A stretch of DNA of 64,000 bases from Saccharibacter sp. 17.LH.SD (GCF_009834805.1 NZ_WVHO01000009.1:622501-686500); one strand, 5' to 3'. Positions 37,125 through 63,459 are shown, numbered from the stretch's first letter. Made by a program: numbers and translations. The notes: generated by a model not told the origin, from the letters alone.

Positions 37125-37154
37125 CGCTTTTTAATGTTAGGATAGTGATCCCTT

Positions 37155-40444: not shown

Positions 40445-40455
40445 GGTTGAGCAGG

Positions 40456-45841: not shown

Positions 45842-47728
45842 ATGCTCAATGTCTGTACGTTTGGCCCTCAAGGGGGCAATGTCTTGTATAAAGCATTGTC
45901 TCATCCCTTGGTGGTGGATGTCTTGCGAGCGTTAGAACGTGAATTGTCTGGTCGGTTTTTTGCGATCTATGACCCAGAAGGGTATCTCCCAACGCTTATA
46001 GGGCTGAACCCCGCATTGAAGCCCAGCGTGGTGTTGACCCATGACACAGAGCAGGTTGGGAAGCCTGATGGTTTAGGAGGAACACTGAAAGCCCTCGTGG
46101 AGCTTCCGGCCGTTGAGGTAGAGTGTGTTCTGGTGGCGTCGTTTGAGCATGCCAAGATGCAGGCACGTCTAGAGGGGCTTTTAAATGGGCGTCCTCTCTA
46201 TAGTTTGGAAAAAGCGCGCCTTCCATCGTCATTCCTTCCTTATAAACGACGTTATTTAGATAAACTTAATTTTGCGACGAATTTTGCTTTCTTTCGCGAT
46301 CATGAAGAATTTTCAACGCGTTTGGTTACGGCCAATTATTGGTCAAATTATGGGGCAGAAAAACTCATCTATTGGTTCCGTCTTTTTGATCAAAATGGGC
46401 ATGTTCTGGCGGAGTGGGAGCACAGCCTGACGGAGGCGAATGCGAGCGTTGTGGTGGATAGTCGTGAGGTGCGACAGCGCTTTAACCTTCCTCCCTTTAC
46501 CGGACAGCTCTTTGTGCATGTTATTGGGGCGAAGGGGCATGATGTTGTTAAATATGCGCTTGATACGTTTGGCCGAAACGGAAACCCGAGCCTCTCGGTA
46601 ACGCACGACGCTAATTCTTGGCCATCAATGCGTTTTGCTACGCTACCAGCGCCCGACCGAGATGAAATCGTCACGGTTTGGTTACAGAATAGCCATGGCA
46701 CATCCATTCCTGAGGGGGCGATTACCTTTAATCCGATGGGGGAGGAGGATCATCGCTCCATAGTGCGGGAGATTAGGCCTTACGAGACGGTAGCTGTGGA
46801 TGTTGGCACGCTTTTCCCTGAGCTCACATGGCCAGCACAGTTGGAGCTCCGTTCAGGGCAACATGTTGTCCGGCCGCGCTACGAGATTAAACAACGCGGG
46901 CGGACGCGGATTGCGCATCTTAATGTTGAGCGGCGTGATTTAACACCAGACCCTGCGATCAAAGCTTTCCCAGCCTCTCTGGGGCGTGGTTTTGTTTTAC
47001 CGTTCCCTGTTTTGGACCCTCAACGGTTTGAGAGCATCGTGCAGCCTAACCCGATGTCAGAGGCGGTTAAAACATTACCTCTTCGTATTGATATTTTTGA
47101 CGAAGAAGGGCGTGAGGTTGGTTCTCATTTTTTAGGAAATTTACCACGACATCATCGTAAAGCTCTCGCCTTGCATGAGTTAACAGACCAGGCAGGCCAT
47201 GCGGATCTCGTTTATGATTTTCGTGACGGAGGGGAGGCTGACGGGTGGTTACATGCTTTGATGCGTTATCGCGACCGGCAAAGTGACCACGCGGCTGAAA
47301 CGAGTTTTGGGGGGCATATTTTCAACACGGTGATGACCTGGCGCTCAGAACCGCAATCATATTCAGGGCCACCACCCGGCTTGACGACGCGTCTGTTTCT
47401 CAAGCTTGGGCAGAATGATGAAAATATGTCCTTCTGGAGCTTTTGTTGCCTCATTTATCCAACGTCAGTCGCTGGGCGTAAACCATCCGAAACGGATTTG
47501 CATCTCTATCGTGCGGATGGTGGAAAGGTCGCGCAGACACGGATAAGCCTGCAGCCTTCTGGCTCCTTCATTGTACGCCCATATCAGCTCTTCCCAGAAG
47601 ACGCGTTGCAAGAGGCTGGGGAAGGCGGGTATGTGCTGATCCGTGATTTAACCTGCCGTTTATTTGGGTATCATGGATTGGATAACGGCCAAGGGGCATT
47701 CTCTTTAGACCATATGTTTGGCTTTTAA
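45842..47728 (+). CDS. Large protein of unknown function downstream of ELM1-like gene
   Basis: The 628-residue protein has no signal peptide or membrane helix. An N-terminal alpha/beta part (residues 1 to about 130, with LYKALSHPLVVDVLRALERE and SVVLTHDTEQVG) is followed by a long beta-rich region with many Trp, His and Phe residues (NYWSNYGAEKLIYWFRLFD, HVIGAKGHDVVKYALD, LFLKLGQNDENMSFWSFCCLIYP) ending SLDHMFGF. I do not recognise a characterised family. AGGCAGG precedes the ATG. The short spacing to the ELM1-like gene suggests a joint role. Confidence 0.75.
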   Translation: MLNVCTFGPQGGNVLYKALSHPLVVDVLRALERELSGRFFAIYDPEGYLPTLIGLNPALKPSVVLTHDTEQVGKPDGLGGTLKALVELPAVEVECVLVASFEHAKMQARLEGLLNGRPLYSLEKARLPSSFLPYKRRYLDKLNFATNFAFFRDHEEFSTRLVTANYWSNYGAEKLIYWFRLFDQNGHVLAEWEHSLTEANASVVVDSREVRQRFNLPPFTGQLFVHVIGAKGHDVVKYALDTFGRNGNPSLSVTHDANSWPSMRFATLPAPDRDEIVTVWLQNSHGTSIPEGAITFNPMGEEDHRSIVREIRPYETVAVDVGTLFPELTWPAQLELRSGQHVVRPRYEIKQRGRTRIAHLNVERRDLTPDPAIKAFPASLGRGFVLPFPVLDPQRFESIVQPNPMSEAVKTLPLRIDIFDEEGREVGSHFLGNLPRHHRKALALHELTDQAGHADLVYDFRDGGEADGWLHALMRYRDRQSDHAAETSFGGHIFNTVMTWRSEPQSYSGPPPGLTTRLFLKLGQNDENMSFWSFCCLIYPTSVAGRKPSETDLHLYRADGGKVAQTRISLQPSGSFIVRPYQLFPEDALQEAGEGGYVLIRDLTCRLFGYHGLDNGQGAFSLDHMFGF

Positions 47729-47800: not shown

Positions 47801-47875
47801 GGGTGCGTAGCTCAGCGGTAGAGCACTGCCTTCACACGGCAGGGGTCACAGGTTCAATCCCTGTCGTACCCACCA
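47801..47875 (+). tRNA. tRNA-Val (anticodon CAC)
   Basis: The acceptor stem GGGTGCG pairs with CGTACCC (one G-T pair). The D arm (GCTCAGCGGTAGAGC), the anticodon stem CTGCC/GGCAG with loop TTCACAC (anticodon CAC, valine) and the T arm (ACAGGTTCAATCCCTGT) are all present, and CCA is encoded. The 3' half and about 40 bp beyond it recur in decayed form at 55311-55394, suggesting that an element integrated here. Confidence 0.97.
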
Positions 47876-47914
47876 TGATCAAAAACCATTCCCCCCAGAA
47901 AATAGCCAGTTTTC
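47829..47914 (+). repeat. Left copy of tRNA-Val 3'-end direct repeat (candidate attL)
   Basis: This segment comprises the anticodon loop to the 3' end of tRNA-Val plus about 40 bp downstream, ending AATAGCCAGTTTT. It matches 55311-55394 with about fifteen differences by eye. The left copy is the functional tRNA; the pair brackets the second hsd operon. Confidence 0.7.
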
Positions 47915-48145
47915 GTTTGTTTTTGTGCATGTAGCCGTAGTGTTGTGCGTTCACGGAAGTTCATCGGAATGCACGATTCATCGTTATAATTGACACGGCG
48001 GTTTAGCCGTGAGGATAGCTCGGGCCTGCTAAGACAGCGCGGCATTCAGCACGCACATTCCCATAATCCCGCATCATTGTAGGAAGTTCTTCCAAGTCAG
48101 TATAAGCCTGCAATTCATGTGCTATTCCGGCGCAGTATATCGTCT

Positions 48146-48227
48146 GGTGCTGTCACATTAATTTTTGCGTGTTAGATGAGGACATGAGCAAGCCTACAGT
48201 GAGTTACAAACGGTATCGATTTCCGCG
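48146..48227 (+). mobile_element. Remnant of an IS6-family element left end
   Basis: GGTGCTGTCACATT and TTTTTGCG near 48146-48170 resemble the terminal repeat of IS6-family elements, and the reading frame at 48184 (MSKPTVSYKRYRFPR) resembles the opening of their transposases. The similarity ends after about 15 codons, so only the left tip remains. The call is from memory of family ends and should be treated as probable. Confidence 0.5.
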
Positions 48228-48245
48228 TGTTCTGATGGTTTCCCA

Positions 48246-48593
48246 TCAGAGAACATGAAATATTGAAGCGGTAAACCACGCAGTTAAGAACGCAACTAAG
48301 AGCGAAGGTATAAAACTTATTAATGTCACTATCCATAAAATAGTGTTTATTGGGCGGCGACGTATTAGCTCCACAGACACCAATAAGAAATTAATAACAA
48401 CGAAGAGCGGCATTGCTTGGAAAAGAAGAGTTAGGGAACATAGAAAAAAAAACGCCCCCGAGTTTCTGCTGGGTGGCATGTCCCATAAAAAAAGTGAGCA
48501 TACTGCCACTGCGAGGGAAGGGTATGCAGCACAGACGTCTGTGAGCAGCATGATAAGTAAGAGAATTGTTTTCCGTCGAGACAAAATGTCCAT
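48246..48593 (-). CDS. Small membrane protein of unknown function
   Basis: The 115-residue product has three or four hydrophobic segments (TILLLIMLLTDVCAAY, FFFLCSLTLLFQAMPLFVVI, TLISFIPSLLVAFLTAWFTA) and a basic loop (ELIRRRPIN), consistent with a small inner-membrane protein. No family recognised. It lies inside the candidate tRNA-Val island between IS remnants, so a cargo role is plausible. Confidence 0.5.
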   Translation of the reverse strand: MDILSRRKTILLLIMLLTDVCAAYPSLAVAVCSLFLWDMPPSRNSGAFFFLCSLTLLFQAMPLFVVINFLLVSVELIRRRPINTILWIVTLISFIPSLLVAFLTAWFTASIFHVL

Positions 48594-48669
48594 CCTACAC
48601 TGATTATAAATTTTGAATCCTTCACCTATAAATGTGTAACATAGTGGTGACCTCCTATCGTTTTTTTCG

Positions 48670-49104
48670 TTACTCCTCGATGCGGCCAGGAAGCTTGGGC
48701 CAATGGCCGTAGATTATTTTTGTGTTGGCGAGGCGTTCGATTTCAGCGAGATAAGTTTGGGTTTTGGGGCCGCCGCGTGCTTTGTAATCGACCATGCCCT
48801 GTTGGGTCTTAATATGATCTGCTGTAGCGGCGATGAGGACAATAGAGAGGAAGGATGATGCTGTTTTTTCATAGCGTGTTGTGACAGCCCGCCATGTTGT
48901 GATGTGCCTCTTCCTTTTTGTTGACCTAGCGTGGGATAGTATCTGCAATATTAGATATCGTATAAGGTAGGAAAAATTATCGTTAATGGGCCGTATCGTA
49001 TCCCGAGAAAAACAGGCGTTAGGTTCGCGGTCCCCAGTGTAAGCTGGATGTGCTTCTGAACGAGAAATGGGCTTCTTTCTTATTGTCGCCCCAGTCGGTA
49101 TCAT
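48670..49104 (-). pseudogene. IS5-family transposase remnant (C-terminal fragment)
   Basis: A 144-codon frame contains WRAVTTRYEKTASSFLSIVLIAA, which matches the conserved end of IS5-family transposases (IATRYEKTA-x-NFLS-x-x-x-LAA). The catalytic DDE residues upstream are missing, and the sequence before and after that motif is unrelated, so this is a fused remnant rather than a working gene. It lies head-to-head with hsdM of system 2, 31 bp away. Confidence 0.55.
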
Positions 49105-49135
49105 TGCCTCAAAACATGACCCTTAGGAGCGTATT

Positions 49136-50656
49136 TTGAGCATTGAGAAAACCTTGTTTGCTGCAGCTAACAAAATGCGTGGGGCTATGGATGCTGGGGA
49201 GTATAAGCATATTGCCCTTGGCTTGTTGTTTTTACGCTATGTCTCAGAAGCGTTCGTTCGTCAGAGAGAGGTGATTGTTTCTGAAGGGGGAGACCCAGAG
49301 GATCGCGACGAATATCTGGCTGAAAGTGTCTTTTTTGTTCCCCAAGTTGCGCGATGGGAGACATTGAAGGCAGAGGCGAAAGATACGCAAATCGGCATCA
49401 AAATTGATGAGGCGATGCGCAAGATTGAGGCTGAAAACCCGATCTTGAAAGGGGCTCTTCCTAAAGGGTTTGGGCGTGAGAGTATCGCGCCGACCTTACT
49501 CAGTGGGTTGATTGATTTATTTTCTAACAAGCTGCCCTTGAATGGCACTCAAGCAGACTTTGACCTGATCGGTCGGGTTTATGAATATTGTATTGGTGAG
49601 TTTGCCGGAGAAGAGGGCAAGCGGGGTGGAGAATTCTACACGCCAAAATCCATTGTTGAGACGTTGATTGAAATGATCGAGCCGACTCATGGGCGCGTCT
49701 ATGACCCGTGCTGCGGGACGGGAGGCTTCTTTGTTCAGTCAGAAAAGTTCATAACTGCCCACCAAGGGCGACGCGATGATATCGCTATTTACGGGCAGGA
49801 GAGGAACCATACGACGTTTGGGCTTGCCCGGATGAATCTTGCGATCCGTAGTATCTTTGCTGATGTACGCTGGAATTCAGAGGGTACTTTGCTGCGTGAT
49901 GAGTTCTCTGATGAACGGTTCGATTATATCCTCGCAAATCCGCCCTTTAATATTAAAGACTGGTCGGGAAAGCTGTTGCGAGAAGACCAGCGCTGGCGGT
50001 TTGGAGTGCCACCTGTTGGTAATGCGAACTTTGCGTGGATCCAGCATATCTATGCTCACCTATCGGCCAGAGGAATTGGCGGTGTTGTCATGGCGAATGG
50101 TTCCATGTCGTCCATGTCCGGTGGGGAAGGAGAGATACGCGAGGCTTTGGTAAAAGGTGAGGCCATTGATTGCATGGTCGCTCTCCCGGGTCAGCTCTTT
50201 TACGGCACACAGATTCCGGCGTGTTTGTGGATTTTGGCCAAAGACAAATCCAACGGTCTCGCTATGGATGAGAAACTGCGTGATCGACGTGGCGAGGTGC
50301 TTTTTATTGATGCGCGAAAGATGGGGGCTCTTGTTCCTGGTTCTCGCAAGCAAAAGGAACTTTCAGCAGAGGAAGTGCACCATATCGCGGCTACCTATCA
50401 CGCATGGCGTGGCGAAACGCGTGATGGTGCGTATGAGGGTGTCCCCGGCTTCTGTAAGTCAGCGACCACAGAAGAGATTGCCGCTAATGGGTTTGTCCTC
50501 ACGCCCGGCCGTTATGTAGGCGCTGAGGCGGTTGAAGAAGATGACGAACCCTTTGAGGAAAAATTCTCCCGCTTGAAAGCGATATTGCAGAAGCAGTTCG
50601 CTGAAGGTCGCCGGTTAGAGGCTGAGATTGAGAAGCGGTTGGGAGAGTTGGGATGA
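49136..50656 (+). CDS. hsdM: Type I restriction-modification methyltransferase subunit (system 2)
   Basis: The 506-residue HsdM opens SIEKTLFAAANKMRGAMDAGEYKHIALGLLFLRYVSEAF. It has FYTPKSIVETLIEMIEP, the SAM motif DPCCGTGGFF and the adenine methylation motif NPPF (ANPPFNIKDW), then GSMSSMSGGEGEIRE and LPGQLFYGTQIPACLW. The start is TTG with AGGAG about 6 nt upstream. It is clearly a different subfamily from the system 1 HsdM. Its stop overlaps hsdS by 4 bp. Confidence 0.93.
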   Translation: MSIEKTLFAAANKMRGAMDAGEYKHIALGLLFLRYVSEAFVRQREVIVSEGGDPEDRDEYLAESVFFVPQVARWETLKAEAKDTQIGIKIDEAMRKIEAENPILKGALPKGFGRESIAPTLLSGLIDLFSNKLPLNGTQADFDLIGRVYEYCIGEFAGEEGKRGGEFYTPKSIVETLIEMIEPTHGRVYDPCCGTGGFFVQSEKFITAHQGRRDDIAIYGQERNHTTFGLARMNLAIRSIFADVRWNSEGTLLRDEFSDERFDYILANPPFNIKDWSGKLLREDQRWRFGVPPVGNANFAWIQHIYAHLSARGIGGVVMANGSMSSMSGGEGEIREALVKGEAIDCMVALPGQLFYGTQIPACLWILAKDKSNGLAMDEKLRDRRGEVLFIDARKMGALVPGSRKQKELSAEEVHHIAATYHAWRGETRDGAYEGVPGFCKSATTEEIAANGFVLTPGRYVGAEAVEEDDEPFEEKFSRLKAILQKQFAEGRRLEAEIEKRLGELG

Positions 50657-51834
50657 AGGGGTGGAAAACTCGTAAACTGGGCGATTTGATAGAATTAAAA
50701 CGTGGCTATGATCTTCCATACTCCAAGCGGGAGAAGGGAGATTTTCCGATTATATCATCTTCGGGATTAAGTGGTTATCATTCGGCTTACAAAGTAAAAG
50801 GACCGGGTGTTATTGCTGGACGATATGGTACAGTTGGACAGATATTTTTCTGTAGACACCCTTTTTGGCCATTAAATACGTCATTGTATATAGTTGATTT
50901 TCGAGAAAACTTTCCTAGATTCTGTTATTATTTCTTAAAAACGTTGGACTGGCACCAATTTAATGACAAGAGTGGCGTCCCTGGTGTCAATCGCAATGAT
51001 GTTCATCAAGAGAGAGTAAAGTTCCCCCCACTCGCCGAACAAAAAGAAATAGCGGCTGTTCTGGGAGCGTTAGACGACAAGATAGAAAATAATCGCAAGA
51101 CAGCAGCAACATTGGAGGAAATGGCGCGGGCATTGTATCGTTCGTGGTTTGTTGATTTTGATCCCGTTCATGCGCGCGCGGCAGGTCGTGCTCCTGCTCA
51201 TATGGATGCGGCTACGGCTGCCCTTTTCCCTGATCGTTTCGGGGAAGATGGGCTGCCGGAGGGGTGGCATATATGTCATATAGGAGATGAATTAGAAATT
51301 TTTGATTCAAAACGGAGACCATTATCAAAGGCCCAGCGGTTGAAAAAAAATGGGAGTATTCCGTACTATGGAGCAACTTCTGTGATGGATTATGTAGATG
51401 AGTTTCTTTTTGATGAGGAGTTGTTACTGCTTGGAGAGGACGGATCAGTTATCCAAGAGAGTGGGAGGCCGTTTACCCAATATATATGGGGGCCGGCCTG
51501 GGTGAATAACCATGCTCATGTATTAAAAGGTAAGAATATTTCAATTCCTCATTTAAAATGTTTCTTTGATCAAGTGGATATTTCAGGTTTTGTAAATGGA
51601 GCTGTTCAAATGAAGTTAAATCAGAGTAACTTAAAAAAAATTCCCTTTTTGAAGGCATCTTTAATAGTACAGAAAAAGTTTGATAGTATTGTAACCATGT
51701 GGTTCCAATATATTCGTTCTCTAAGAGAACAATCCCAAACCCTCACTACCCTACGTGACACACTTCTCCCTCGTCTCATGTCGGGAGAGCTAAGGGTGGG
51801 GAAAGCGAAAGAAATGGTCGAGGAGGTTCTTTGA
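50653..51834 (+). CDS. hsdS: Type I restriction-modification specificity subunit (system 2)
   Basis: The 393-residue HsdS has TRD1 (about 1-120), the central conserved region FPPLAEQKEIAAVLGALDDKIENNRKTAATLEEMARALYRSWFVDFDPV (about 117-170), TRD2 (about 205-350) and a C-terminal conserved helix TLTTLRDTLLPRLMSGELRV. The TRD-coding parts are AT-rich against their surroundings, as in other hsdS genes. The start overlaps the hsdM stop (ATGA), and hsdR follows after 4 bp. Confidence 0.93.
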   Translation: MKGWKTRKLGDLIELKRGYDLPYSKREKGDFPIISSSGLSGYHSAYKVKGPGVIAGRYGTVGQIFFCRHPFWPLNTSLYIVDFRENFPRFCYYFLKTLDWHQFNDKSGVPGVNRNDVHQERVKFPPLAEQKEIAAVLGALDDKIENNRKTAATLEEMARALYRSWFVDFDPVHARAAGRAPAHMDAATAALFPDRFGEDGLPEGWHICHIGDELEIFDSKRRPLSKAQRLKKNGSIPYYGATSVMDYVDEFLFDEELLLLGEDGSVIQESGRPFTQYIWGPAWVNNHAHVLKGKNISIPHLKCFFDQVDISGFVNGAVQMKLNQSNLKKIPFLKASLIVQKKFDSIVTMWFQYIRSLREQSQTLTTLRDTLLPRLMSGELRVGKAKEMVEEVL

Positions 51835-51838
51835 CATC

Positions 51839-54800
51839 ATGGCATGGGTGAGTGAAGCAGAGCTGGAAACACATTTCATGGAAAGCCTTGTGCCGTTGGG
51901 TTATAGACTGGCGCAGGGCAGGGATGTGTCCCCAGAACATCGCTCACCATTACGGGAAAGCTTTCGTGATGCCATTCTCACTTCGGTTTTTTCAGAGAGC
52001 TTAAAACGCCTTAACCCGACTTTTCCGGCCTCAGCGTTAAAAGAAGCGGCGCGACGGGTGCTGAATACTGTCTTTACGACAGATATTTTACAAGAAAATC
52101 GCCGCCTGCATGAGCTGATGGTCGGTGGCGTGCCAGTTACATTTACGTCGCCTGATGAACAAGAAGAACGGCATGAACGCGTTCGGCTTGTTGACTGGAC
52201 AAACCAAGCCAATGATTGGTTGGCTGTGCGCCAGTTCGATATAGCTGGGGCAACGGTGCGTATTCCTGACGTTGTGCTCTTCCTAAACGGCTTACCGCTG
52301 GTTGTGGTGGAGCTTAAGACAATCACAGGGGCGGATATTAAGGCCGCATGGAACCAAATTGCGACCTACAAGCATGATATTCCTGAGCTTTTCCGTACCA
52401 ATCTCTTTACGATTATTTCAGATGGAATGCAGGCTCGCTATGGATCACTCTCGGCAGAGTTTGATCGATATATGGGGTGGCGAACCGTTGATGGACATAC
52501 GCTTGTTCCTCATGGCTCCACGCTAGAGCTCGCGACATTGGCAGAGGGGCTTCTGGCCCCAGCAATTATGCTGGATATGTTGCGTTGGTTTACCGTGTTT
52601 GAGGATGATGGCCGTGGGTTGAGCAAGAAAATAGCAGGATATCATCAGTTCCATGCTGTGCAGAAAGCTCATAGTTCCATAATGGTAGCACAAGAGCGGG
52701 ACGGCAAAGCAGGGGTGATTTGGCATACGCAGGGCTCTGGAAAAAGTCTTCTGATGGCTTTCCTCTCTGGTCGTGTCATGCGCGACCCTGCCATGAAAAA
52801 CCCCACTCTCCTTGTGCTGACAGATCGGAATGACCTGGATAATCAGCTTTTCGCAACGTTTGCGCGGTGTAAGGGGATTTTGGGTGAAGAGCCCATACAG
52901 ATTGATAGCATACAGGATTTGAAACAGACATTAAGCCGTGAGAGTGGGGGAGTTATCTTCTCGACGATCCAAAAATTCCGGCCAGATGGAGGCGAAGACT
53001 TCCCGGAGCTTACTGATCGTTCAAACGTGATTGTGTTGGTCGATGAAGCTCATCGCACACAATATAATTTGGAAGAAAAGATCGATAGAAAGACAGGTCA
53101 GATTAAAAAAGGCTTAGCCTTCCATCTTCGGCGTGCTTTGCCTCATGCCGTGTATGTTGCCTTTACAGGCACTCCAGTTGAGTTGGTTGGGGCTGATACG
53201 CGCGGTGTGTTTGGTGATTATATCGATATCTATGATATTGCACAGGCTGTTGCAGATCGCGCTACGGTGCCGATTTATTATGAATCCCGCGTCGTGAAAA
53301 TTGACCTGGATGAAGAGATTACAGCCATCCTTGATGATGAGTTCAGTGAAGCTACCGAAGCCTTACCAGAAGACCAAGTAACGGCTAAAGCACGGAAATG
53401 GGCCCGCGTGGAAGCGTTAGTGGGGGCAGACAAGCGGCTTGATATGGTCGTTGCTGATATTCTGGATCATTTCAACGCGCGTTTACAGGCGATGAATGGG
53501 AAAGCCATGATCGTCTGTATGAGCCGTCGTATTTGCGTGGAAGTGTATAAACGCATTATCGCGGCATACCCTGAATGGGGCGGCGAAACGGATGATACGG
53601 GCTGTGTAAAGGTCGTTATGACAGGCTCTGCGACTGACCCGCAAGAATTCAAGCCTCATATACGGTCCAAAGCGCGGCAGGAAATAATCCGTAAGCGTTT
53701 TAAAGATGCAAAAGACCCGCTAAAATTGGTGATCGTCCGCGATATGTGGCTTACAGGCTTTGATGCGCCCTGTATGCATACGCTGTATGTTGACAAACCT
53801 ATGCGTGGTCATGGGCTGATGCAGGCCATCGCACGGGTTAACCGCGTGTTTGAGGACAAGCCTGCGGGCCTTGTTGTCGATTACATTGGGATTGCCGCTG
53901 AGTTGAAGGCTGCTTTAGCGCATTATTCCAAGACGGATCAGGATGAAACAGGCATTGATGAAGGGGAGGCGGTTGCGGCGTTCCTCGATGCGCTCGATGT
54001 TTCACGTGCACAGTTCCATGGGTTTGATTACAGCAAAGCTTTGGATGGTACGCCAGGGGAACGCTTAGCTATTTTACCGAATGCCCTTGAGTATCTTTTA
54101 GAGAAAGATCGTGAGAGCGATAAAGAAACAAAACGTTTTCGACATGCCGTAGCGGCGTTGGTGAAGGGGTATAAGCTCGCTTCTGGTAATGCGCGTGTGA
54201 GAGAGTATGCGACGGAGGTTGCCTTTTTTGTTGCTGTGCGCTCCAGCTTGGACAAGCTTGATGCGGGAGGGGGGAACCGTACGCATGACGACCGTGATGT
54301 TGCTATTCAGCAGCTCGTTAATAAGGCTGTGACGTCCACAGAAGTAATCGATATCTTGTCTGTTTGCGGCATTAAACGGCCCGATATTAGCGTTCTCTCC
54401 GAAGAGTTTCTGTTAGAGCTGCAAGGGATGAAGCAACGCAATCTTGCAGTTGAAGCGTTAAAGAAACTGCTTGACGGGCAGATTAAGGCGCGAACACGAA
54501 CAAATGTTGTTCAGCAGGAGGCTTTCTCGACACGCCTTAAGGAAGCCATAGCGCGGTATCACAATCGTAGTGTAACAGCCGTGCAGGTTCTGCAAGAACT
54601 GATTAATCTTGCAAAAGATGTGCAAAATGAGCCTCAGGACGGTTACAGTAAAGAAGAGCGCGCTTTTTACGATGCGCTGGCACAAAATAAGAGTGCTGTG
54701 GAGCTAATGAGCAATCAGGAGCTCCGTGTTATCGCTACAAAATTGGTGCTGACTGTGCGTAATAACGCAGGTGTGGATTGGTGGAAACGTGACGATGTGC

Positions 54801-54919
54801 GTGCCAAAATGAGGGTGGCAATCAAGCGCATTCTTAAACATTATGGTTATCCACCCGATATGACATCAAATGCGGTTAAGCTTGTGTTGAAGCAGGCAGA
54901 AGCTTTGGCTGTGGGGTAA
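51839..54919 (+). CDS. hsdR: Type I restriction endonuclease subunit (system 2)
   Basis: The 1,026-residue HsdR is intact. The N-terminal nuclease domain has RIPDVVLFLNGLPLVVVELKT (PD-ExK type). The motor domains have WHTQGSGKSLLMAFLSG (Walker A), VLTDRNDLDNQLF, LVDEAHRTQYN (DEAH box), YVAFTGTPVEL, MWLTGFDAPCMHTLYVDKPM and MQAIARVNRVF. The C-terminal helical part binds the complex. It is the last gene of the operon; the reading frame has no interruption, unlike the hsdR of system 1. Confidence 0.95.
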   Translation: MAWVSEAELETHFMESLVPLGYRLAQGRDVSPEHRSPLRESFRDAILTSVFSESLKRLNPTFPASALKEAARRVLNTVFTTDILQENRRLHELMVGGVPVTFTSPDEQEERHERVRLVDWTNQANDWLAVRQFDIAGATVRIPDVVLFLNGLPLVVVELKTITGADIKAAWNQIATYKHDIPELFRTNLFTIISDGMQARYGSLSAEFDRYMGWRTVDGHTLVPHGSTLELATLAEGLLAPAIMLDMLRWFTVFEDDGRGLSKKIAGYHQFHAVQKAHSSIMVAQERDGKAGVIWHTQGSGKSLLMAFLSGRVMRDPAMKNPTLLVLTDRNDLDNQLFATFARCKGILGEEPIQIDSIQDLKQTLSRESGGVIFSTIQKFRPDGGEDFPELTDRSNVIVLVDEAHRTQYNLEEKIDRKTGQIKKGLAFHLRRALPHAVYVAFTGTPVELVGADTRGVFGDYIDIYDIAQAVADRATVPIYYESRVVKIDLDEEITAILDDEFSEATEALPEDQVTAKARKWARVEALVGADKRLDMVVADILDHFNARLQAMNGKAMIVCMSRRICVEVYKRIIAAYPEWGGETDDTGCVKVVMTGSATDPQEFKPHIRSKARQEIIRKRFKDAKDPLKLVIVRDMWLTGFDAPCMHTLYVDKPMRGHGLMQAIARVNRVFEDKPAGLVVDYIGIAAELKAALAHYSKTDQDETGIDEGEAVAAFLDALDVSRAQFHGFDYSKALDGTPGERLAILPNALEYLLEKDRESDKETKRFRHAVAALVKGYKLASGNARVREYATEVAFFVAVRSSLDKLDAGGGNRTHDDRDVAIQQLVNKAVTSTEVIDILSVCGIKRPDISVLSEEFLLELQGMKQRNLAVEALKKLLDGQIKARTRTNVVQQEAFSTRLKEAIARYHNRSVTAVQVLQELINLAKDVQNEPQDGYSKEERAFYDALAQNKSAVELMSNQELRVIATKLVLTVRNNAGVDWWKRDDVRAKMRVAIKRILKHYGYPPDMTSNAVKLVLKQAEALAVG

Positions 54920-55642
54920 TAAAGGGCGAAGCAGGATGGAAATGTTTGAGGCTCGGAGCGTAGAGTGGGGTTAAGGGCTAGACCCATTTCCAATTGAGCA
55001 ATATTCCTTCCTATCGACTTTACTAGCATGCCCTTCTTTTGCGTTACATATAATAGTAAGAAAGAGAGGAGAATGTCTGCTGGGAAAAGTATTTCATAAT
55101 TTTAAGAGGTTGTCATTTATCGTGATTATGCGTGTTAGGTGATGGCTTTTAGGGTCTGGAGTGAAACTTTTTTCCAGATGTAGTTACTAAAATATTGACC
55201 CAGATTTATGTATTTTCTCGTCCTTTCAATCATAATGTATTTGTTTTTAGAATTGGCTATAAGGCTAAAGAAAATAAGTTTTTTTAACAGGGAAGAGACT
55301 TTCAAGCTCGCTTTCACACGACAGGGGTTACAGGTTTTATTCCTGTCGTAACCATTATGATTAAAAGCTGTTTCCCCAGAAATAGCCAGTTTTTGCGTGA
55401 GTGTTCCGTAAAATAGAAATTTTCCATTCCTCGTCTTAATCCTTTTTTCCTGTTTTTTCCACGCGAGTCTTTAGAATTTACTGGCAAGTTTTTGCACAGT
55501 CCTTGCAGAGTTAGGGAGGCTCCTAAACTTCAGTGGTTTTGACAACGGCCTGCATTAAGCTTGCTACCGACAAGCGTAAAAAGACAGGAAATCGTATCAA
55601 ACCTTCATGACGGTATGTCTAAAGCGAGCAGGAAGAGAAATC
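54920..55642. other. Gene-poor AT-rich region at the right end of the tRNA-Val island
   Basis: No supported gene lies here. It contains the decayed tRNA-Val repeat (55311-55394). A TTGACA at 55539 could be a -35 element for the following hicB-like gene, but no good -10 follows. A short leftward frame at 55135-55317 is Lys- and Ile-rich and looks non-coding. Confidence 0.5.
55311..55394 (+). repeat. Decayed copy of tRNA-Val 3' end (candidate attR)
   Basis: TTCACACG-x-CAGGGG-x-ACAGGTT and CCTGTCGTA-x-CCA repeat the tRNA-Val anticodon loop, T arm and acceptor 3' strand, and the match continues to TAGCCAGTTTT. Most differences are C to T. The acceptor and T stems are disrupted and no 5' half exists, so it is not a tRNA gene. 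Confidence 0.7.
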
Positions 55643-56069
55643 ATGAAATATGCCTACCCGGTTGATTTTGAAGGAAACTCCGATGGAATCATAACAGCCG
55701 CCTTTGCCGGGCTTCCTAGTGCGACAAGACGGCCGTAAGAGTCAGGAATGCTTAAAAGAAGCGTCTGACCTGTTAGTGGCCGCCTTATCTTTTTATTCGG
55801 AAGATGGTCTGCCACTGTTCAAACCAACACCAGCATACGGACGCCCGCTTGTCTATGTGCCTGTATTAGAGTCTATGAAATTTGCGCTGCGTGAAGCGAT
55901 GATTGAGCAGAAACTGATAAACGGCGCCCTTGGTGAACGTCTAGGCGTCTCTGAAGTGATCATCCGCCGCTTGCATGAAAGCAAAGTAAGTCGTGTAGAG
56001 GAAGCCTTAAAGGTTGTAGGGTTACAACCCGCAATCAATGTAAGCCCAGCAATGGAGATCGTAGCATAA
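55643..56069 (+). pseudogene. hicB: HicB-like antitoxin gene with frameshift
   Basis: The ATG at 55643 has AGGAAGAG upstream and encodes MKYAYPVDFEG...AFAGLPSA, the HicB N-terminus, then runs into a stop near 55736. A second frame (from about 55704 to 56069) continues the protein: RQDGRKSQECLKEASDLLVAAL, GLPLFKPTPAYGRPLVYVP, and a C-terminal helix-turn-helix (MIEQKLINGALGERLGVSEVIIRRLHE). One indel at about 55700-55712 joins them. No hicA toxin gene is visible in the 250 bp upstream, where it usually lies. Translation from an internal start could still make the DNA-binding part. Confidence 0.7.
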
Positions 56070-56218
56070 TGTCAGGTCAAGAGAAACAAGATGTCGTCAC
56101 AAGGTTAAAGGTAGTGTTCATTACAATATTATGGTCAGTACTCATTAGTGTGGGGGGGGGCACTCTTTATCTTTCTCTGGGTAGCCACATGGTATGGACT
56201 CTTGGAGTTTTCAATTAA
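56069..56218 (+). CDS. Possible small membrane protein (49 residues)
   Basis: The ATG overlaps the stop of the hicB-like gene by one base (TAATG). The product MSGQEKQDVVTRLKVVF... has one hydrophobic segment. A run of nine G (56152-56160) lies in the middle; in a shifted frame the hydrophobic segment continues more convincingly (ALFIFLWVATWYGLLEFSI), so a frameshift is possible. Coding status is uncertain. Confidence 0.3.
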   Translation: MSGQEKQDVVTRLKVVFITILWSVLISVGGGTLYLSLGSHMVWTLGVFN

Positions 56219-56513
56219 TGACCAGACAAAAACCGCGTTACTAAAGATGGATCTTTATCAAGCATAGCGAGCAATACCATGGCCGGGCCTGTAGGGGATC
56301 GCCGCCTTTGCTCCCAATTTTGGAAAGTTCCTTTCACAACGCCAATGGTCTTAGAAAATTCAGCTTGTGACAGGCCAGCCCTGGCACGAATATGTTCAAT
56401 ATCGACGCGGGGAACAGACACTTCAGGACGAGGGCACTTCCATCTTTCCCGTGAGCAAAATCAGGTGCTTCTTTCAGTCCAAGCAAAACACTTTCACCGG
56501 CCTTAACCAGCAT
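56215..56513 (-). pseudogene. XRE-type antitoxin gene with frameshift
   Basis: The 3' frame (from 56421) encodes a helix-turn-helix, VDIEHIRARAGLSQAEFSKTIGVVKGTFQNWEQRRRSPTGPAMVLLAML, as in HigA/NadS-type antitoxins. The expected N-terminus (MLVKAGESVLLGLKEAPDFAHG, ATG at 56513) is present in another frame, and the two join near 56430-56445 with one indel. The partner toxin is not visible. The short form from 56421 might still be made, but its N-terminal part would be missing. Confidence 0.65.
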
Positions 56514-56667
56514 AAAGGTGCTCGGTTGTGTATGCGCCCATATCAGGGGCCATGAAATTCGCTTTGCATGACAAATGAGCAAAAGATGCGTAAAGTGTTT
56601 CCTGGACAGTCCAGTGACATAGGCATTTGTGCGTATGATAGTGATTTAAAATAGGAATGATAAGCCC

Positions 56668-57360
56668 ATGAAGCTCCTTCGTCTTTTCTCTCTCATCGTG
56701 GGAGCAACATTGGCTTATGGTTCTGCGCAAGCGGCGGATGAAACGCCGAGCGATTTCTCACCGTCAGAAATGGGAAACCTTAAGTGTAGTGTGTATAATG
56801 CATATCAAGGCCGGACGAGCCATTTTTTTATGCTTTCATGGGTGCAGGGCTATTTGTCGGGTACAGATACTATCCGAGTAGTTATATTTAAACAAAAAAG
56901 TATTCTCAGTGCAGTGAAAGATAATAACGGCATTATTCCAATGCTTAATACTAATTGCTCTAAAGAGAGTGATAATACATTGTTGCAAGTCTCTATGATT
57001 ATGTTTTTGAATTTTAATTCAGATTCACAAAAAGAAAAGTTCAGCGACGGGCAGGGAGACCAAAAAACTTACTTAGATTTAGGAGTTGGGCATAAGACAT
57101 GCGATTTCTTCAACCTTCACCAGAAGGATAAGATGGGTCTTCTTGCTCTGTCATGGTTTCAAGGTCAACTAGTAGGGATGGATAACGCCTTAGCTTTTGG
57201 CACGTTGGGAGACAGTTTTCTTGGTAAGGTTAGCGATAGAAATGAGCTCAATGAGGCCTTCGTTCAATCATGCAGAGCGAACCCATCTCAACTGATATCA
57301 ACTGTTGGAGGTAGGGTATTTCTTAATGCTGCAAAAAAAATGCGGGCTAAAAGCCAATAA
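56668..57360 (+). CDS. Secreted protein with two HdeA-like repeats
   Basis: The 230-residue product has a signal peptide (residues 1-22, cleavage after AQA). The mature part is a tandem duplication: repeat 1 has LKCSVYNAY...FMLSWVQGYLSGTDTI and a later Cys (NTNC); repeat 2 has KTCDFFNLH...LALSWFQGQLVGMDNA and QSCRANPSQLI. The Cys-x(2)-Phe/Tyr, W-x-QG and second Cys pattern recalls HdeA-type acid chaperones and Rap1a-like domains. A role in acid stress is inference. AGGAATG lies 10 nt before the ATG. A fragment of a paralogue lies at 59294-59404. Confidence 0.7.
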   Translation: MKLLRLFSLIVGATLAYGSAQAADETPSDFSPSEMGNLKCSVYNAYQGRTSHFFMLSWVQGYLSGTDTIRVVIFKQKSILSAVKDNNGIIPMLNTNCSKESDNTLLQVSMIMFLNFNSDSQKEKFSDGQGDQKTYLDLGVGHKTCDFFNLHQKDKMGLLALSWFQGQLVGMDNALAFGTLGDSFLGKVSDRNELNEAFVQSCRANPSQLISTVGGRVFLNAAKKMRAKSQ

Positions 57361-57391
57361 GGCCAGGAATTACGAGAAAGCACGAGACATT

Positions 57392-57424
57392 CGCCCATTT
57401 TTAAGCGGACGATGGGCGCTTTTG
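57392..57424 (+). terminator. Possible terminator of the HdeA-like gene
   Basis: CGCCCAT pairs with ATGGGCG (7 bp) around a 13-nt loop, followed by CTTTT, 30 bp after the stop codon. Confidence 0.55.
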
Positions 57425-57477
57425 GAGAGAGCCTATTCTAAGCGAAAACTTAACGAAGTTCAGCTCTTACCTCTTCT

Positions 57478-57788
57478 TTAGAGTATATTGATGGCGCGAT
57501 GAATGTGAGGTGCTGGCGTGACGAAACGAATAGAAACCTCCTTTCCGGTCGCCTAAGCAATGCGCTCGAGCATTTTAACCGTTGGAGAGCGCTCTCCTGC
57601 TTCTAAGCGAGCGATGCTTGATTGAGTGGTGCCAAGCCTTTCGGCAAGTTCGGTTTGCGTTAACTCGGCTTTCTTTCTCATGGTGACGATGGCTTTAACC
57701 AAATCATAGTTTGCCTTAGAGGCTTTATAAGCCTTGGAAAACCATCGTCTTTCATGAAGTATTTCTTGAGGGTGCTGGGCTTAGTCAT
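57478..57788 (-). pseudogene. HigA-like XRE antitoxin gene with frameshift and nonsense codon
   Basis: From the ATG at 57788 the frame reads MTKPSTLKKYFMKDDGFPR. After an indel near 57732-57742 it continues in another frame as KAYKASKANYDLVKAIVTMRKKAELTQTELAERLGTTQSSIARLEAGERSP, a helix-turn-helix antitoxin pattern. A TAG at 57553-57555 falls where the family reads RIAEATG, and the frame then continues ATGKEVSIRFV to a TAA at 57478. Two independent lesions make this a pseudogene. No toxin partner is visible beside it. Confidence 0.7.
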
Positions 57789-57910
57789 GATTTCTGATCA
57801 GAAATAACGCTTTTCATCATACTTATCTCTTTCATATGGGAAGAAACGTTATTCTTTAAATTCTAAAAAACTCTAGTAAGCGTTAAAGAACTATTCCTGC
57901 TCACACACAT

Positions 57911-57950
57911 AAAAACAATTGAGTCCTCCAATGGGGCCTCAATTGTTTTT
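57911..57950. terminator. Strong bidirectional terminator after adh
   Basis: AAAAACAATTGAG and CTCAATTGTTTTT form a perfect 13-bp inverted repeat with T-runs on both strands. It ends the leftward alcohol dehydrogenase gene, 24 bp beyond its stop. Confidence 0.88.
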
Positions 57951-57974
57951 ATTGATTCACAATTTTTGCTGTAT

Positions 57975-58988
57975 TTATTTGTGATTAAATCCTACGACCA
58001 TTCTACCGCGGATTTTTCCTGCTTCCATTTCCTCGACGATCTCTTGAACTTCGTCAAGTTTCCGCATAGTCACCTTGGGGACGACTTTTCCTTCTGCTGC
58101 AAATTGGAAGGCTTCCGCCAAGTCACTGCGTGTGCCTACAAGAGAGCCGACGACCTCAATGCCATCAAGAACAAGACGGGGAATGCTGAGATCCATCTTT
58201 TCAGGGGGTAGGCCAACCGCCACAACACGACCACCTGCACGGACCGCATCAACCGCAGAGTTAAAGGCCAGTCGCGAGACAGCAGTGACAACAGATGCGT
58301 GTGCGCCGCCACATTTTTCCTGAATAATAGCGGGGACATCATCCGTTTTTGGGTTAAGCGTTAAAGTTGCGCCGAGCGAACGGGAAAATTCAAGCTGAGC
58401 ATCATTGATATCAATGGCGATGACTTTGGCATTAAAGACATTATGGGCATATTGCAGAGCGAGGTTTCCAAGCCCTCCAAGACCATAAATGGCAATCCAT
58501 TGGCCCGGTCTAATACCCGATACTTTGACGGCTTTATAGGTTGTTACTCCGGCGCATGTAATGCTGCTGGCGGCGGCTGAATCAAGACCATCTGGCACTT
58601 TGACAGCATAGTCGGCAGGGACAATGCATTTTTCTGCCATAGCGCCGTCTACCGTATAGCCCGCATTTTTGACATTACGGCATAGTGTTTCGCGGCCTGT
58701 TGTACAATATTCACAATGGCCACATCCGCTATAAAACCACGCAACACTCGCACGATCACCCACTTTGAGGGCCGTAACATCTGGCCCTACTTCCGTAACG
58801 ATACCAATGCCCTCATGCCCGATGATGACGCCTGTTTTATCGCCGAAGTCACCTTTCAAAACATGGATATCGGTATGGCAGACGCCGCAACATTCCATTG
58901 TAAGCAGGGCCTCACCATGGCCTGGAGCACGGATCTCGCGTTCTACGATTTCAGCTTTACGGTTCTTCCCAACGACAGCAGCTCTCAT
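57975..58988 (-). CDS. adhP: Zinc-dependent alcohol dehydrogenase (AdhP type)
   Basis: The cytosolic 337-residue NAD-linked dehydrogenase has the catalytic zinc site [14 protein letters not shown] and [12 protein letters not shown], the structural zinc cluster [15 protein letters not shown], the Rossmann motif [13 protein letters not shown], and the conserved [10 protein letters not shown]. It resembles AdhP of E. coli, which oxidises ethanol. The ATG at 58988 follows GGAGGG by 6 nt; an upstream in-frame extension is not needed. It stands alone with its own terminator. Confidence 0.93.
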
Positions 58989-59557
58989 GACAATCCCTCC
59001 GGATCGTAAATTTTTTTTCACAAGAGTGAGCCTAGCGCATCTCTGTTGTTTTCAGCCGATAGATCTCTGCAGGGCGAATATGCAGTGGTGGGATGGCTGG
59101 GACGTTCACATAAGAAAGGGGAGGAGGTTTTTGAGAGTAGGCTCTCTGCCCTTCTTCATGGGGATTTGGGCGTGCAGGACCTTACCTTATTGGTGGGCTG
59201 TGTCTCTGAATGTGTGTCCACCATTTGCGCGATTCATTGCACGGCAGCAAAAATAATCGCGTTGACGTGGCTCTAGGGATCGTAAAGTTATAATCCACAA
59301 TTGATGCAAGCTTAACAGACCCTAATCCATCTCAACAAATATCAGATGTTGGGGCTGTTATGTTTCTGAAGCTTGCCCAAAAATTCGTGTTAAATAACCA
59401 GTGACTACACTTCATTGACCACGCCACAGGGATATCCACTGAATTTCAGTAAATGTCCCTGCTGTGTTGCTTCCCAAATGCTTTGTTATCTTACGCATTT
59501 AAAGAGCAGCGTATAAAAGATGGGAAGAAATGAGGTGTGTGGTGTTTGATAAGGTGA
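58989..59557. other. Gene-poor region with a paralogue fragment
   Basis: It should hold the adhP promoter. A rightward frame at 59046-59276 has no recognisable family and no good ribosome site, so I do not call it. The only interpretable piece is the fragment at 59294-59404. Confidence 0.5.
59294..59404 (+). pseudogene. Fragment of a second HdeA-like repeat protein
   Basis: The frame ending at the TGA 59402-59404 reads DPNPSQQISDVGAVMFLKLAQKF near its end, which matches the C-terminus of the protein at 56668-57360 (ANPSQLISTVGGRVFLNAAKKM). A stop at 59291 and absence of the rest of the protein show it is a remnant. Confidence 0.55.
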
Positions 59558-60319
59558 TCAATATTCATCTAAAGCGCTGAGAACCATGTCAGCGGCGAGT
59601 GCACTGCTATGTTGTTGCTGGCCTGTAATGAGACGACCGTCACGGATGGCAAAAGCTTCATTTGGGCCACGACATACAAAAGTTGTGCCAGAAATTTTAG
59701 TGGCTTCATCTTGGATAGTGTACGTATTCAACTTTGTGCCGAAAGCGGTATTGATTTCTTCTTCCTCTTCGTCAGTGAATCCTGTCCATTTTTTCCCATC
59801 GGCTAACAACCGACCATCGGAAAGCTTTGTCCAAAGCAGAAGAGAGGAACCGTGGCAAATTGTCGCAACAATCTTACCTTTTTCGTAAAAGGAGGCGATT
59901 AATGCGTGGAGTGCCGTGTCATCTTTAAAGGTGAGGAGTGGCCCACCGCCGCCAGCAACCCAGACAGCATCGTAATCGTCCACATTGATGGAACTGATCG
60001 ACAATGTATTTTTCAGCATCGCTGCGAATTTCGCATGATGCACGAAGCCAAGCGTAATAAGGTCATCGGCATAAGCACCGTTAAGTGTGCGTGGGTCGCT
60101 ATGGGTGTCGATCAAGACTTCCCCACCTTTGGGAGAGGCTAAATCCACGTGATGGCCAGCTTCTATGAAGGATAGGAAAGCACGCGTCATTTCTTCACCA
60201 AAGAACCCAACTGGAAACCCTTTGAGATCAGCAGTATTGGACACAATTGATAGAATGCGACGTGGTTTATGCTTTACGCCGAAACGGCTTTCAAATTTGA
60301 TATCAGATGCAGTAGACAT
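59558..60319 (-). CDS. DJ-1/PfpI superfamily (HchA-like) protein
   Basis: The 253-residue protein belongs to the class I glutamine-amidotransferase-like DJ-1/PfpI superfamily. It has GFFGEEMTRAF, the ASPKGG strand, DYDAVWVAGGGGPLLTF and the nucleophile elbow IVATICHGSSLLL with the reactive Cys, then TGFTDEEEEEINTAFG and TGQQQHSS. It resembles HchA-type glyoxalase III or protein-repair proteins in length and layout, suggesting defence against reactive aldehydes; this is by family. Single gene, leftward. Confidence 0.85.
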   Translation of the reverse strand: MSTASDIKFESRFGVKHKPRRILSIVSNTADLKGFPVGFFGEEMTRAFLSFIEAGHHVDLASPKGGEVLIDTHSDPRTLNGAYADDLITLGFVHHAKFAAMLKNTLSISSINVDDYDAVWVAGGGGPLLTFKDDTALHALIASFYEKGKIVATICHGSSLLLWTKLSDGRLLADGKKWTGFTDEEEEEINTAFGTKLNTYTIQDEATKISGTTFVCRGPNEAFAIRDGRLITGQQQHSSALAADMVLSALDEY

Positions 60320-60777
60320 GGTGGGCTCTCGATCAGTGGTGTAACAGCGCTAAATGTTTAGGGATATCCAAGGAACTTCTTCCCTTTATACAATCCGGCC
60401 ATGCTGTTGACCATATCTGTTTGGATCAACCAGGTAAAGTGATGGTCTGTTTAATCTCTAATTTTTCATTCGTCTGGGAGTGTAAAGAGGGAGTAATGAG
60501 ATAAGCGATGGATCTGTTGCAACGTTTTAGGTGCGCTGAAAAACAATAAGTCAGGAGATTCTCAGCTCATTCAAAACTCTGCAGCAAAGTTGCTTTACGA
60601 AACAAAAATTCTCCCGTACAAAATGTTACGAATTATAAATGAATTGATATCTATTTAGCGAGGGGAGGTCGGGAAATCGTTTTATTCAGCCGACGAAGGC
60701 TCTCCGCACTATGTGTCGCACCGCTGTTGGCAATGGCGGTGTTGAAGCAAAAACAGACTCAATCAGGGAAAAGCTTC
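60320..60777. other. Intergenic region with a candidate IS6 end
   Basis: No gene is visible until 60778, although an in-frame upstream extension of the beta-propeller gene reaches 60727. It contains CTGTTGCAACGTTT at 60514-60527 followed by GG...CTGAAAA, similar to the left end of the IS6-family element at 61759. The promoter of the beta-propeller gene is not evident. Confidence 0.45.
60514..60543 (+). repeat. Degenerate IS6-like terminal sequence
   Basis: CTGTTGCAACGTTT and the following CTGAAAA match the first 30 bp or so of the IS at 61759 with several changes. It may be the trace of a second IS copy on the left of the beta-propeller gene. Confidence 0.4.
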
Positions 60778-61755
60778 ATGTCGGCACGCAGGTTCGTATC
60801 CATCCCGCTCAACCAGCCTTGCCAGGCTTTGGCAGTTTCCCGCCGCGGCGATATGATCGCAGCGTATAAAAATTTTGGCGGCCTGATCTCCGTCTATGAT
60901 GTCTCAGGCAAGCTTCTGGCCGCCGTCGAGCGGACCGGACCGGATGTGAGCAAGGAGATCTACTTCACAGACAACGATCTGGTGATTTCCGATCCGAGAG
61001 ACCCGTATAGAGAAACGTGCTCCTTTCAGGCGATCGATATGAAACGCTCGGGAGAGGTCTCGTTTTCTGCGGCCCTGAGCGAGCGGCCCCGCTTCAAGTG
61101 GCAGGCTGGGCAGATCGCTTTGTCTGAAACGGGACGTCACATCCTTACCAACCCTAATACTGGGACGGCCGAAGACATTACACTTTATGACAGTCATGCA
61201 ATCGAAACCTGCCGTTTCCCAAATAGGGTGATTAAAGTGCTCGCGAGGGCGATCGCCATCCATGAGGGAACGGATCGCATCGCATTGGCGACATCACGGG
61301 AGGGAATCAATCTCCTGTCGATCAGCACGGGAGAGATCGTCCGGACCCTCGAAGGCTTATTCGGTGATTTTATACCGGCAGAGAGAATGGCTTTCTCAAG
61401 CTGCGGTCGGTTCCTCGCTGTCAGTCGTACCATTTCGAGTTCAGTACTGCAGCGCGCCTATGTCGGTGGCCTCCGCATCTATGACGCGGCAAGCGGCGCG
61501 CTCCTGCATGAGTCCGACACCCATGGCGAGTGTCCGGACCGTCTCGAATGGTGGGAACACATGCGCTCCTTCAACGCGCAAGTCAACGACGACTACATCA
61601 TCATCCGCGAACGTAACGGCCAGTTTACGGCCAGCACGCGGACTATTCCCGGCCTGATCGACGCTGTGGCGATCCCGGGCACCAGCACGATCGCCTACAT
61701 GCGTTGCGGTCTCCTGCGTTCGAGCAAGATCGAATTTCTGGACCTGGGAGCGTAA
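60778..61755 (+). CDS. Beta-propeller (WD40-like) protein of unknown function
   Basis: The 325-residue product consists of repeated four-stranded units of the type AVSRRGDMIAAYKNFGGLISVYDVSG, ALSETGRHILTN...ITLYDS, IAIHEGTDRIALATSREGINLLSISTG and FSSCGRFLAVS...LRIYDAASG, i.e. a propeller with WD40/YncE-like blades and no signal peptide. The start at 60778 has AGGGAAAAG upstream. The gene is clearly GC-richer than its surroundings and ends 3 bp before the IS6-family element, so it looks recently acquired. Function unknown. Confidence 0.65.
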   Translation: MSARRFVSIPLNQPCQALAVSRRGDMIAAYKNFGGLISVYDVSGKLLAAVERTGPDVSKEIYFTDNDLVISDPRDPYRETCSFQAIDMKRSGEVSFSAALSERPRFKWQAGQIALSETGRHILTNPNTGTAEDITLYDSHAIETCRFPNRVIKVLARAIAIHEGTDRIALATSREGINLLSISTGEIVRTLEGLFGDFIPAERMAFSSCGRFLAVSRTISSSVLQRAYVGGLRIYDAASGALLHESDTHGECPDRLEWWEHMRSFNAQVNDDYIIIRERNGQFTASTRTIPGLIDAVAIPGTSTIAYMRCGLLRSSKIEFLDLGA

Positions 61756-61758
61756 AGG

Positions 61759-62579
61759 GCCCTGTTGCAAAGTTTGGGCTGATATCTGAAACCATTGTCG
61801 GCTTTGAAGCGGAGCTGTTGGGATGAGTGATTTCAAAGGGCGTTATTTTCGAGGCGAAGTGATCTTGTGGGCGGTTCGTTGGTATTGCCGCTACGGGCTC
61901 AGCTACCGTGACCTTAAAACCAGGCTGGCCGAGCGTGGTGTGAGCGTTGATCATTCAACGATTTACCGTTGGGTTCAGCGCTATGCGCCCGAAATGGAGA
62001 AACACTTGTGCGCTGGTATTGGAAACGCCCGGGCTTCGTGCGCAGTTGACGGGTTGATGAGACCTACATCAGGGTCAAAGGAAAGTGGACGTATTTGTAT
62101 AGGGCCGTCGACAAAGACGGGTGATACGATTGATCGTTATCTGTCTCCGACCCGGAATGCCAAAGTGGCCAAGGCGCTGAACGGTCTGAAAGACTGGGAG
62201 AAGCCCGAGATGATCAACATGGACAAGGCCTCGACCTACGGCATTGCGATCAGCGAACTCAAGAAAGACGGAAAACTTCCGGATACGGTGAAACACCGTC
62301 AGGTGAAGTATCTGAATAACGTGATTGAATCTGATCATGGCAAGCTCAAGCAGCTCATCAAGCCGGTTCGTGGGTTCAACACCCTAAAAACAGCCTACGC
62401 GACGATCAAGGGTTTTGAGGTTATGCACGCCCTTAAAAAAGGACAGGCCTCACTCTGGCAATATCAGAAAGGCCTCATGGGAGAAGCACGTCTGGTCGAA
62501 AGACAATTCGGCGTTTACACCGTTTGAAATGCAAAATAAATTAAGTGGTTGCGTCCTTAACCTAACTTTGCAACAGGGC
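61759..62579 (+). mobile_element. IS6-family insertion sequence, defective
   Basis: The element is bounded by inverted repeats GCCCTGTTGCAAAGTT (61759-61774) and AACTTTGCAACAGGGC (62564-62579), 16 of 16 matching, and is about 820 bp long, the usual IS6-family size. No matching 8-bp target duplication is visible in the immediate flanks. Its transposase gene is damaged. Confidence 0.9.
61823..62527 (+). pseudogene. IS6-family transposase with compensating frameshifts
   Basis: The 234-codon frame starts FKGRYFRGEVILWAVRWYCRYGLSYRDL with the family's HTH, and ends with INMDKASTYG (second catalytic Asp) and VIESDHGKLKQLIKP (catalytic Glu). Between about 62005 and 62122 the frame is wrong: the true sequence (LVRWYWKRPGF...RVDETYIRVKGKWTYLYRAVDKDG), including the first catalytic Asp, lies in another frame and contains a TGA in place of the Trp of SWRVDE. 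About five residues before KALNGLKDW are also missing. The protein cannot be active as read. Confidence 0.85.
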
Positions 62580-62743
62580 ATTGCAATTACCTATTAGATC
62601 AGCCTTACATCATCACCAATTAGTACTCTCAAGCCGATACTCAAATTTTGAAAAGGGCTTGCTGTAAACGGTAATTTTATTTCATAATTGTAATCAATTT
62701 AGTCCTATCTAGGAATGTGTCCGCATGCAAAAAGGGGGATGTT

Positions 62744-63433: not shown

Positions 63434-63459
63434 AATTAAGAGTTAGAATTCTCTTTTTC
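63432..63459 (+). terminator. Possible terminator between convergent genes
   Basis: AGAATT and AATTCT form a 6-bp stem with a 9-nt loop, followed by CTTTTTC, just at the end of the DJ-1-like gene and touching the stop of the leftward gene. Confidence 0.4.

Follow-up and report, generated by a model that had tools for sequence, protein, structure and literature searches.

What kind of element lies between a valine tRNA gene and a worn copy of its 3′ half in Saccharibacter sp. 17.LH.SD, and how does a restriction operon come to sit inside it? The window, that is, the whole stretch of 64,000 nucleotides that we analysed, corresponds to bases 622501–686500 of contig C9 in a genome of 2.1 Mb, and Saccharibacter floricola and Saccharibacter sp. 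EH611 served as genus mates for comparison. A sequence-only reading of the window had proposed a type I restriction-modification island that used tRNA-Val(CAC) as its attachment site and later lost its integrase. tRNA-Val(CAC) is the sole tRNA that ARAGORN reports in the window, and the 628-aa gene to its left (45842–47728) forms a conserved pair with it in Saccharibacter, Bombella, Gluconobacter, Asaia and others. In many relatives the FGase (N-formylglutamate amidohydrolase, Pfam) gene and then tRNA-Val(GAC) come after tRNA-Val(CAC). The two valine tRNAs are 1.8 kb apart in genome G198, where tRNA-Val(CAC), the FGase gene and tRNA-Val(GAC) make up a compact site, about 2.4–8.8 kb apart in Bombella-type genomes, and 16.6 kb apart in the window genome, where the FGase start is at 63459 and tRNA-Val(GAC) falls just beyond the window (window-equivalent 64428–64502). 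All that can be read from the compact G198 arrangement is that the complete interval separating both tRNAs varies; an empty site with the tRNA joined to the sequence right of 55394, which the sequence-only reading had proposed to look for in related genomes, was found in no relative searched. The features of the locus are collected in Table 1, where "GAC prophage" denotes the prophage that the window genome carries at tRNA-Val(GAC).

Table 1. Features at and beside tRNA-Val(CAC), in window positions.
Feature	Position	Strand	Basis or match
tRNA-Val(CAC), integration target, intact	47801–47875	+	ARAGORN; follows the 628-aa gene in 21 relatives too
Left att repeat copy: tRNA 3′ half, CCA, 38 bp trailer	47828–47913	+	BLAST against own genome
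Phage left-end remnant	47876–48123	-	72% over 247 bp, GAC prophage left end
IS6-type 5′ fragment, transposase gene start	48144–48240	+	Matches copies on contig C10
115-aa ORF, membrane-like segments, no family match	48246–48593	-	Translation, family search
IS5-type transposase gene fragment	48796–48895	-	Matches on acetic acid bacterial plasmids (see text)
hsdM, type I methyltransferase subunit, 506 aa, TTG start	49136–50656	+	Pfam N6_Mtase, HsdM_N
hsdS, specificity subunit, 393 aa, two target-recognition stretches	50653–51834	+	Pfam Methylase_S, 2 stretches
hsdR, type I restriction subunit, 1026 aa	51839–54919	+	Pfam HSDR_N, SWI2_SNF2, T1R_D3-like, T1RH-like_C
AT-rich stretch, 37% GC, no integrase trace	54920–55309		Similarity to integrase ends no better than shuffled
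Right att repeat copy, decayed, 81–82% identity	55310–55393	+	BLAST, local alignment
Flank like the sequence right of the GAC prophage attR (C1)	55395–55509	+	75%
HicB-like antitoxin gene, frameshifted	55644–56069	+	Stops in frame from 55632; PHROG 497
Helix-turn-helix regulator, phage family	56215–56421	-	PHROG 2104, E 1e-20

The degraded tRNA-Val 3′ half with its trailer, from which the sequence-only reading had started, is real. When the genome was searched with tRNA-Val(CAC), tRNA positions 28–113 matched the right copy (81%, E 2e-15), and local alignment of the repeat scored 53.5, whereas the 14 kb downstream reached no more than 20 when shuffled 20 times. Alignment of both copies bore the repeat out with slightly corrected boundaries (Table 1), so that a direct repeat of the tRNA 3′ end, as in tRNA-integrated elements, is present at the far boundary. 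No third att copy was found between 55394 and tRNA-Val(GAC). By type the right copy belongs with tRNA-Val(CAC), to whose gene it aligns with a score of 53, as opposed to 26.5 for the GAC gene. The trailer is conserved in its own right, since several Bombella and Asaia genomes have a motif like CAGAAAA..GC.GTTTTT behind tRNA-Val(CAC). The bias towards C-to-T differences that had been described is genuine, in that 9 of the 18 substitutions from left to right copy are C to T and one is G to A, although the sites behind it are few.

The same att anatomy was observed at five other valine-tRNA element ends, with copies that are 88–100% identical, and every att copy compared starts within tRNA positions 23–31. 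In the GAC prophage, which is split over two contigs (C9:686928 onward plus C1:1–27655; L009:18428–20000, L062, L105 and L106), the att copies agree in all 88 bp, starting at tRNA position 26, and a tyrosine integrase gene (C1:26351–27505) ends shortly before the right-end att. Because it has terminase, portal and baseplate genes, we consider the GAC prophage to be a tailed phage, and it is apparently complete. It resembles the window element in att anatomy, left end and genomic neighbourhood, but differs from it in this completeness, in possessing an integrase and in its identical att copies; no hsd operon was seen in the stretches of it that were read. In genome G011, about 38.6 kb of phage-like DNA follow tRNA-Val(CAC) (C7:2698–41467), with an att copy of 58 bp (100%) and an integrase 51% identical to that of the GAC prophage, and in Acetobacter phage phiAX1, 54 bp of the tRNA-Val(GAC) 3′ half adjoin the integrase; the integrases of G011, the GAC prophage and phiAX1 are pairwise 51–62% identical. 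The G011 prophage and phiAX1 share with the window element the use of the valine tRNA 3′ half as att, but they are complete phages, with no restriction operon in the regions read. Genome G105, which belongs to another genus, carries a 26-kb island at tRNA-Val(GAC) (C2:135494–161685) with an integrase beside the tRNA and an att copy of 98%.

Integration of temperate phages of acetic acid bacteria at tRNA 3′ ends has been described for phiAP1, which uses tRNA-Ser (PMC8566455). A search of IMG/VR with the GAC prophage integrase and the flank at 55.4 kb returned no other related phage, only a single record with a 100% identical integrase that is probably the genome's own prophage; the tRNA-Val 3′ motif is present in 103 stretches of IMG/VR contigs. 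G105 also has a decayed element of its own at tRNA-Val(CAC), with an att copy of 88% located 3.5 kb off (L240:10527–14143) and a D12-class adenine methyltransferase gene inside. In EH611 (G001:C2; L121:1700–2100), an integrase gene adjoins a tRNA 3′ fragment of a non-valine type, followed by a trailer motif and then by short phage-end and IS5 fragments resembling those of the window.

Since the repeat is significant and the same att boundary recurs at the five other element ends, we read the interval as an integrative element. It is conceivable that the right repeat is no att site and is instead the decayed rest of a duplicated valine tRNA gene, given that valine tRNA genes have been duplicated, as their closely spaced pair at this locus in many relatives shows. 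We regard this as highly improbable, as the copy holds only the anticodon stem onward and begins at the boundary common to the five element ends, which a decayed whole tRNA gene is not expected to share; its CAC type also speaks against a duplicate, and a third valine tRNA at the locus was seen in no relative scanned.

The left end of the interval tells what the element may have been. Positions 47893–48123 share 72% identity with the GAC prophage's left end, and within them 48033–48122 is a fragment of a small lipoprotein-like phage ORF (73% to the GAC prophage ORF) that matches PHROG 26778, a family of unassigned function. The same kind of phage left end lies directly at tRNA-Val(CAC) in both S. 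floricola and EH611, and together with the similarity to the GAC prophage this indicates that the left end of the island is phage DNA. Phage DNA between the att copies amounts to this left end of about 230 bp, with no structural genes. To its right we found, as the sequence-only reading had stated, IS6 and IS5 remnants and a small ORF with membrane-like segments (Table 1). The IS5-type fragment reaches at most 82% identity with IS5 transposases annotated on plasmids of acetic acid bacteria and is 79% identical to sequence in EH611 and S. floricola; both IS fragments show later wear of the element.

At the right end, the integrase gene is missing. Related prophages carry it beside the right att, and the corresponding place in the window is the AT-rich stretch that follows hsdR (Table 1). 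A tblastn search with 19 ORFs from integrase loci gave no convincing integrase remnant in 47876–64000, and an integrase gene is present next to neither boundary, for which reason we term the element decayed. The claim that an integrative element used tRNA-Val(CAC) and then lost its integrase is supported, with a right att copy at 82% in comparison to 100% over 88 bp at the sister tRNA.

Beyond the right repeat, the first 115 bp resemble the flank that follows attR of the GAC prophage (flank-only alignment score 50.5 vs a shuffled maximum of 28), and the counterpart on C1 runs into a regulator gene that is also present inside the GAC prophage. Neither of the other two Saccharibacter genomes was found to contain these 115 bp. 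Judged from this likeness, they are probably the end of another phage-like element, and the expectation that the sequence right of 55394 would be native to the site was not substantiated. The simplest reading, in our view, would be a stack at both valine tRNAs, composed of an element, an att copy and the end of an older element, and the frameshifted HicB-like gene and the phage-type regulator fit this reading. The rest of the stretch up to 63458 holds genes for an alcohol dehydrogenase (57975), a DJ-1/PfpI-like protein and an IS6-type transposase; in no relative searched does 55395–63458 lie beside the tRNA, and EH611, S. floricola and Bombella dulcis have no counterpart with matching neighbours for either the alcohol dehydrogenase or an exported protein (56668). 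The gene for the exported protein (56668–57360) has a 70% match to its 3′ end (57280–57339) at 59324–59383, beyond the alcohol dehydrogenase gene, as though a further copy of it had decayed there.

In this worn surrounding, the hsdM-hsdS-hsdR operon had been called intact, and it is: all three genes are full-length open frames with every expected Pfam domain, and Pfam and PADLOC match over the full length. The HsdM translation contains the motifs DPCCGTGG and NPPF, and that of HsdR a PD...ELK nuclease motif, TQGSGKS and DEAH. As in other type I restriction-modification systems, three subunits with the expected domains are encoded in one operon and nothing about it is unusual. Presumably the operon is a working defence of the usual sort, which methylates and restricts DNA. 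The closest operon relative found lies in the G105 island, with HsdM at 83%, HsdR at 76% and HsdS at only 39% identity. The 628-aa chromosomal neighbour of the tRNA, which is vertically inherited, is 62% identical between the window genome and G105, and the higher values of HsdM and HsdR point to horizontal exchange of the operon. The operon was found in neither genus mate at the set limit. Plasmid-borne hsd genes were considered as closer relatives, but the best HsdR among them reached 67% (Paracoccus yeei), so G105 remains the closest. Among distant hsdR relatives (about 53% and below), none was seen near valine tRNAs and a few are near other tRNAs; the single case of the G105 island hints that the operon may travel with tRNA-Val elements. 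Known phages matched the island DNA just three times, in short stretches within the hsd region and in unannotated fecal records.

Selection for the operon, as suggested by the sequence-only reading, is plausible. Compared with the G105 operon, pN/pS is 0.14 for hsdM and 0.19 for hsdR, with synonymous sites saturated, which reflects purifying selection over the joint history of both operons, mixing the time before and after arrival here; the values are therefore not specific to the time since arrival. The window also holds a second, unrelated type I operon (34415–41199) with hsdM (34415–36013), hsdS (36003–37124) and an hsdR split in two frames (37155–37982 and 37985–40444), after which an ORF resembles a YgjP-type metalloprotease.

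Taken together, the interval is likely to be a decayed prophage at tRNA-Val(CAC) that holds an intact, horizontally exchanged hsd operon, with at least two elements probably stacked at the site. The prophage reading follows from the likeness of the left end to the GAC prophage, from the phage ends at tRNA-Val(CAC) in the genus mates and from the complete tRNA-Val(CAC) prophage with integrase and att in G011, and the identity of the vehicle hangs on one end with its 230 bp or so of phage DNA. Accepting this, a temperate phage with a phiAX1-like integrase would have entered the 3′ end of tRNA-Val(CAC) by means of its tyrosine recombinase, with a regenerated tRNA to the left of it and another tRNA 3′ half with trailer to the right. 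The prophage would then have decayed, losing its structural genes and the integrase at the right att, and IS6 and IS5 copies would have arrived and been broken; the short left end is all the phage DNA left. Inside it lies the type I operon, whole, exchanged horizontally with other acetic acid bacteria and presumably active, and the right att copy abuts the probable end of the other phage-like element.

How the operon came to be inside is a separate matter, on which the label of a type I restriction-modification island proved too specific: nothing shows that hsd came in the same event. Given the phage sequence at its left end and no date for the entry of hsd, the interval is better named a ruined prophage in which restriction genes lie. 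A consideration that counts against the decayed-prophage reading is that the closest relative of the operon sits in no phage but in the transposon-rich G105 island with its integrase at the tRNA end; that no relative searched offers an empty site and that a native origin of the right flank was not demonstrated also count against it. This island, att-bounded like the window element and holding the closest hsdM and hsdR, would suit a scenario in which 47.9–55.3 kb is an island of the G105 kind that integrated whole with its hsd cargo, the phage-like 230 bp stemming from an earlier occupant. We think this quite unlikely. The G105 island differs from the window element in occupying the sister tRNA, in retaining integrase and transposons, in its better preserved att copy and in its other hsdS; its integrase adjoins the tRNA, where the window has the phage left end, and of the other island genes compared, a weak regulator match alone is shared. 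More weight belongs to the possibility, against which we nevertheless lean, that hsd was inserted later into the decayed prophage by IS-mediated or homologous recombination unrelated to the att sites. The IS6 and IS5 fragments directly left of hsd would agree with this, as would the far greater divergence of HsdS than of HsdM and HsdR, according to which parts of the operon recombine. However, no IS end or target duplication was found flanking hsd, and the nearest hsd relative likewise lies in a tRNA-Val island. A later insertion is compatible with the account of the repeat given above and differs only in the timing of hsd.

The locus clearly illustrates an event of an ordinary kind, at an integration site that several related bacteria also use. 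What it adds is a graded set of elements, some fresh and some decayed, at a single pair of sites, with att copies at 100% in the sister-tRNA prophage, 98–100% in complete elements of related genera, and 88% and 82% in the two decayed elements. In the window, moreover, the restriction operon outlasts most of the surrounding element. A wider picture, tentative and on balance rather doubtful, is that the twin valine tRNA genes are an integration hotspot in acetic acid bacteria, where one type I cassette moves between genera and between both isoacceptor sites with constant M and R and exchanged S, outliving each vehicle. If this twin-site picture were true family-wide, defence genes of acetic acid bacteria could well be sought at this locus.
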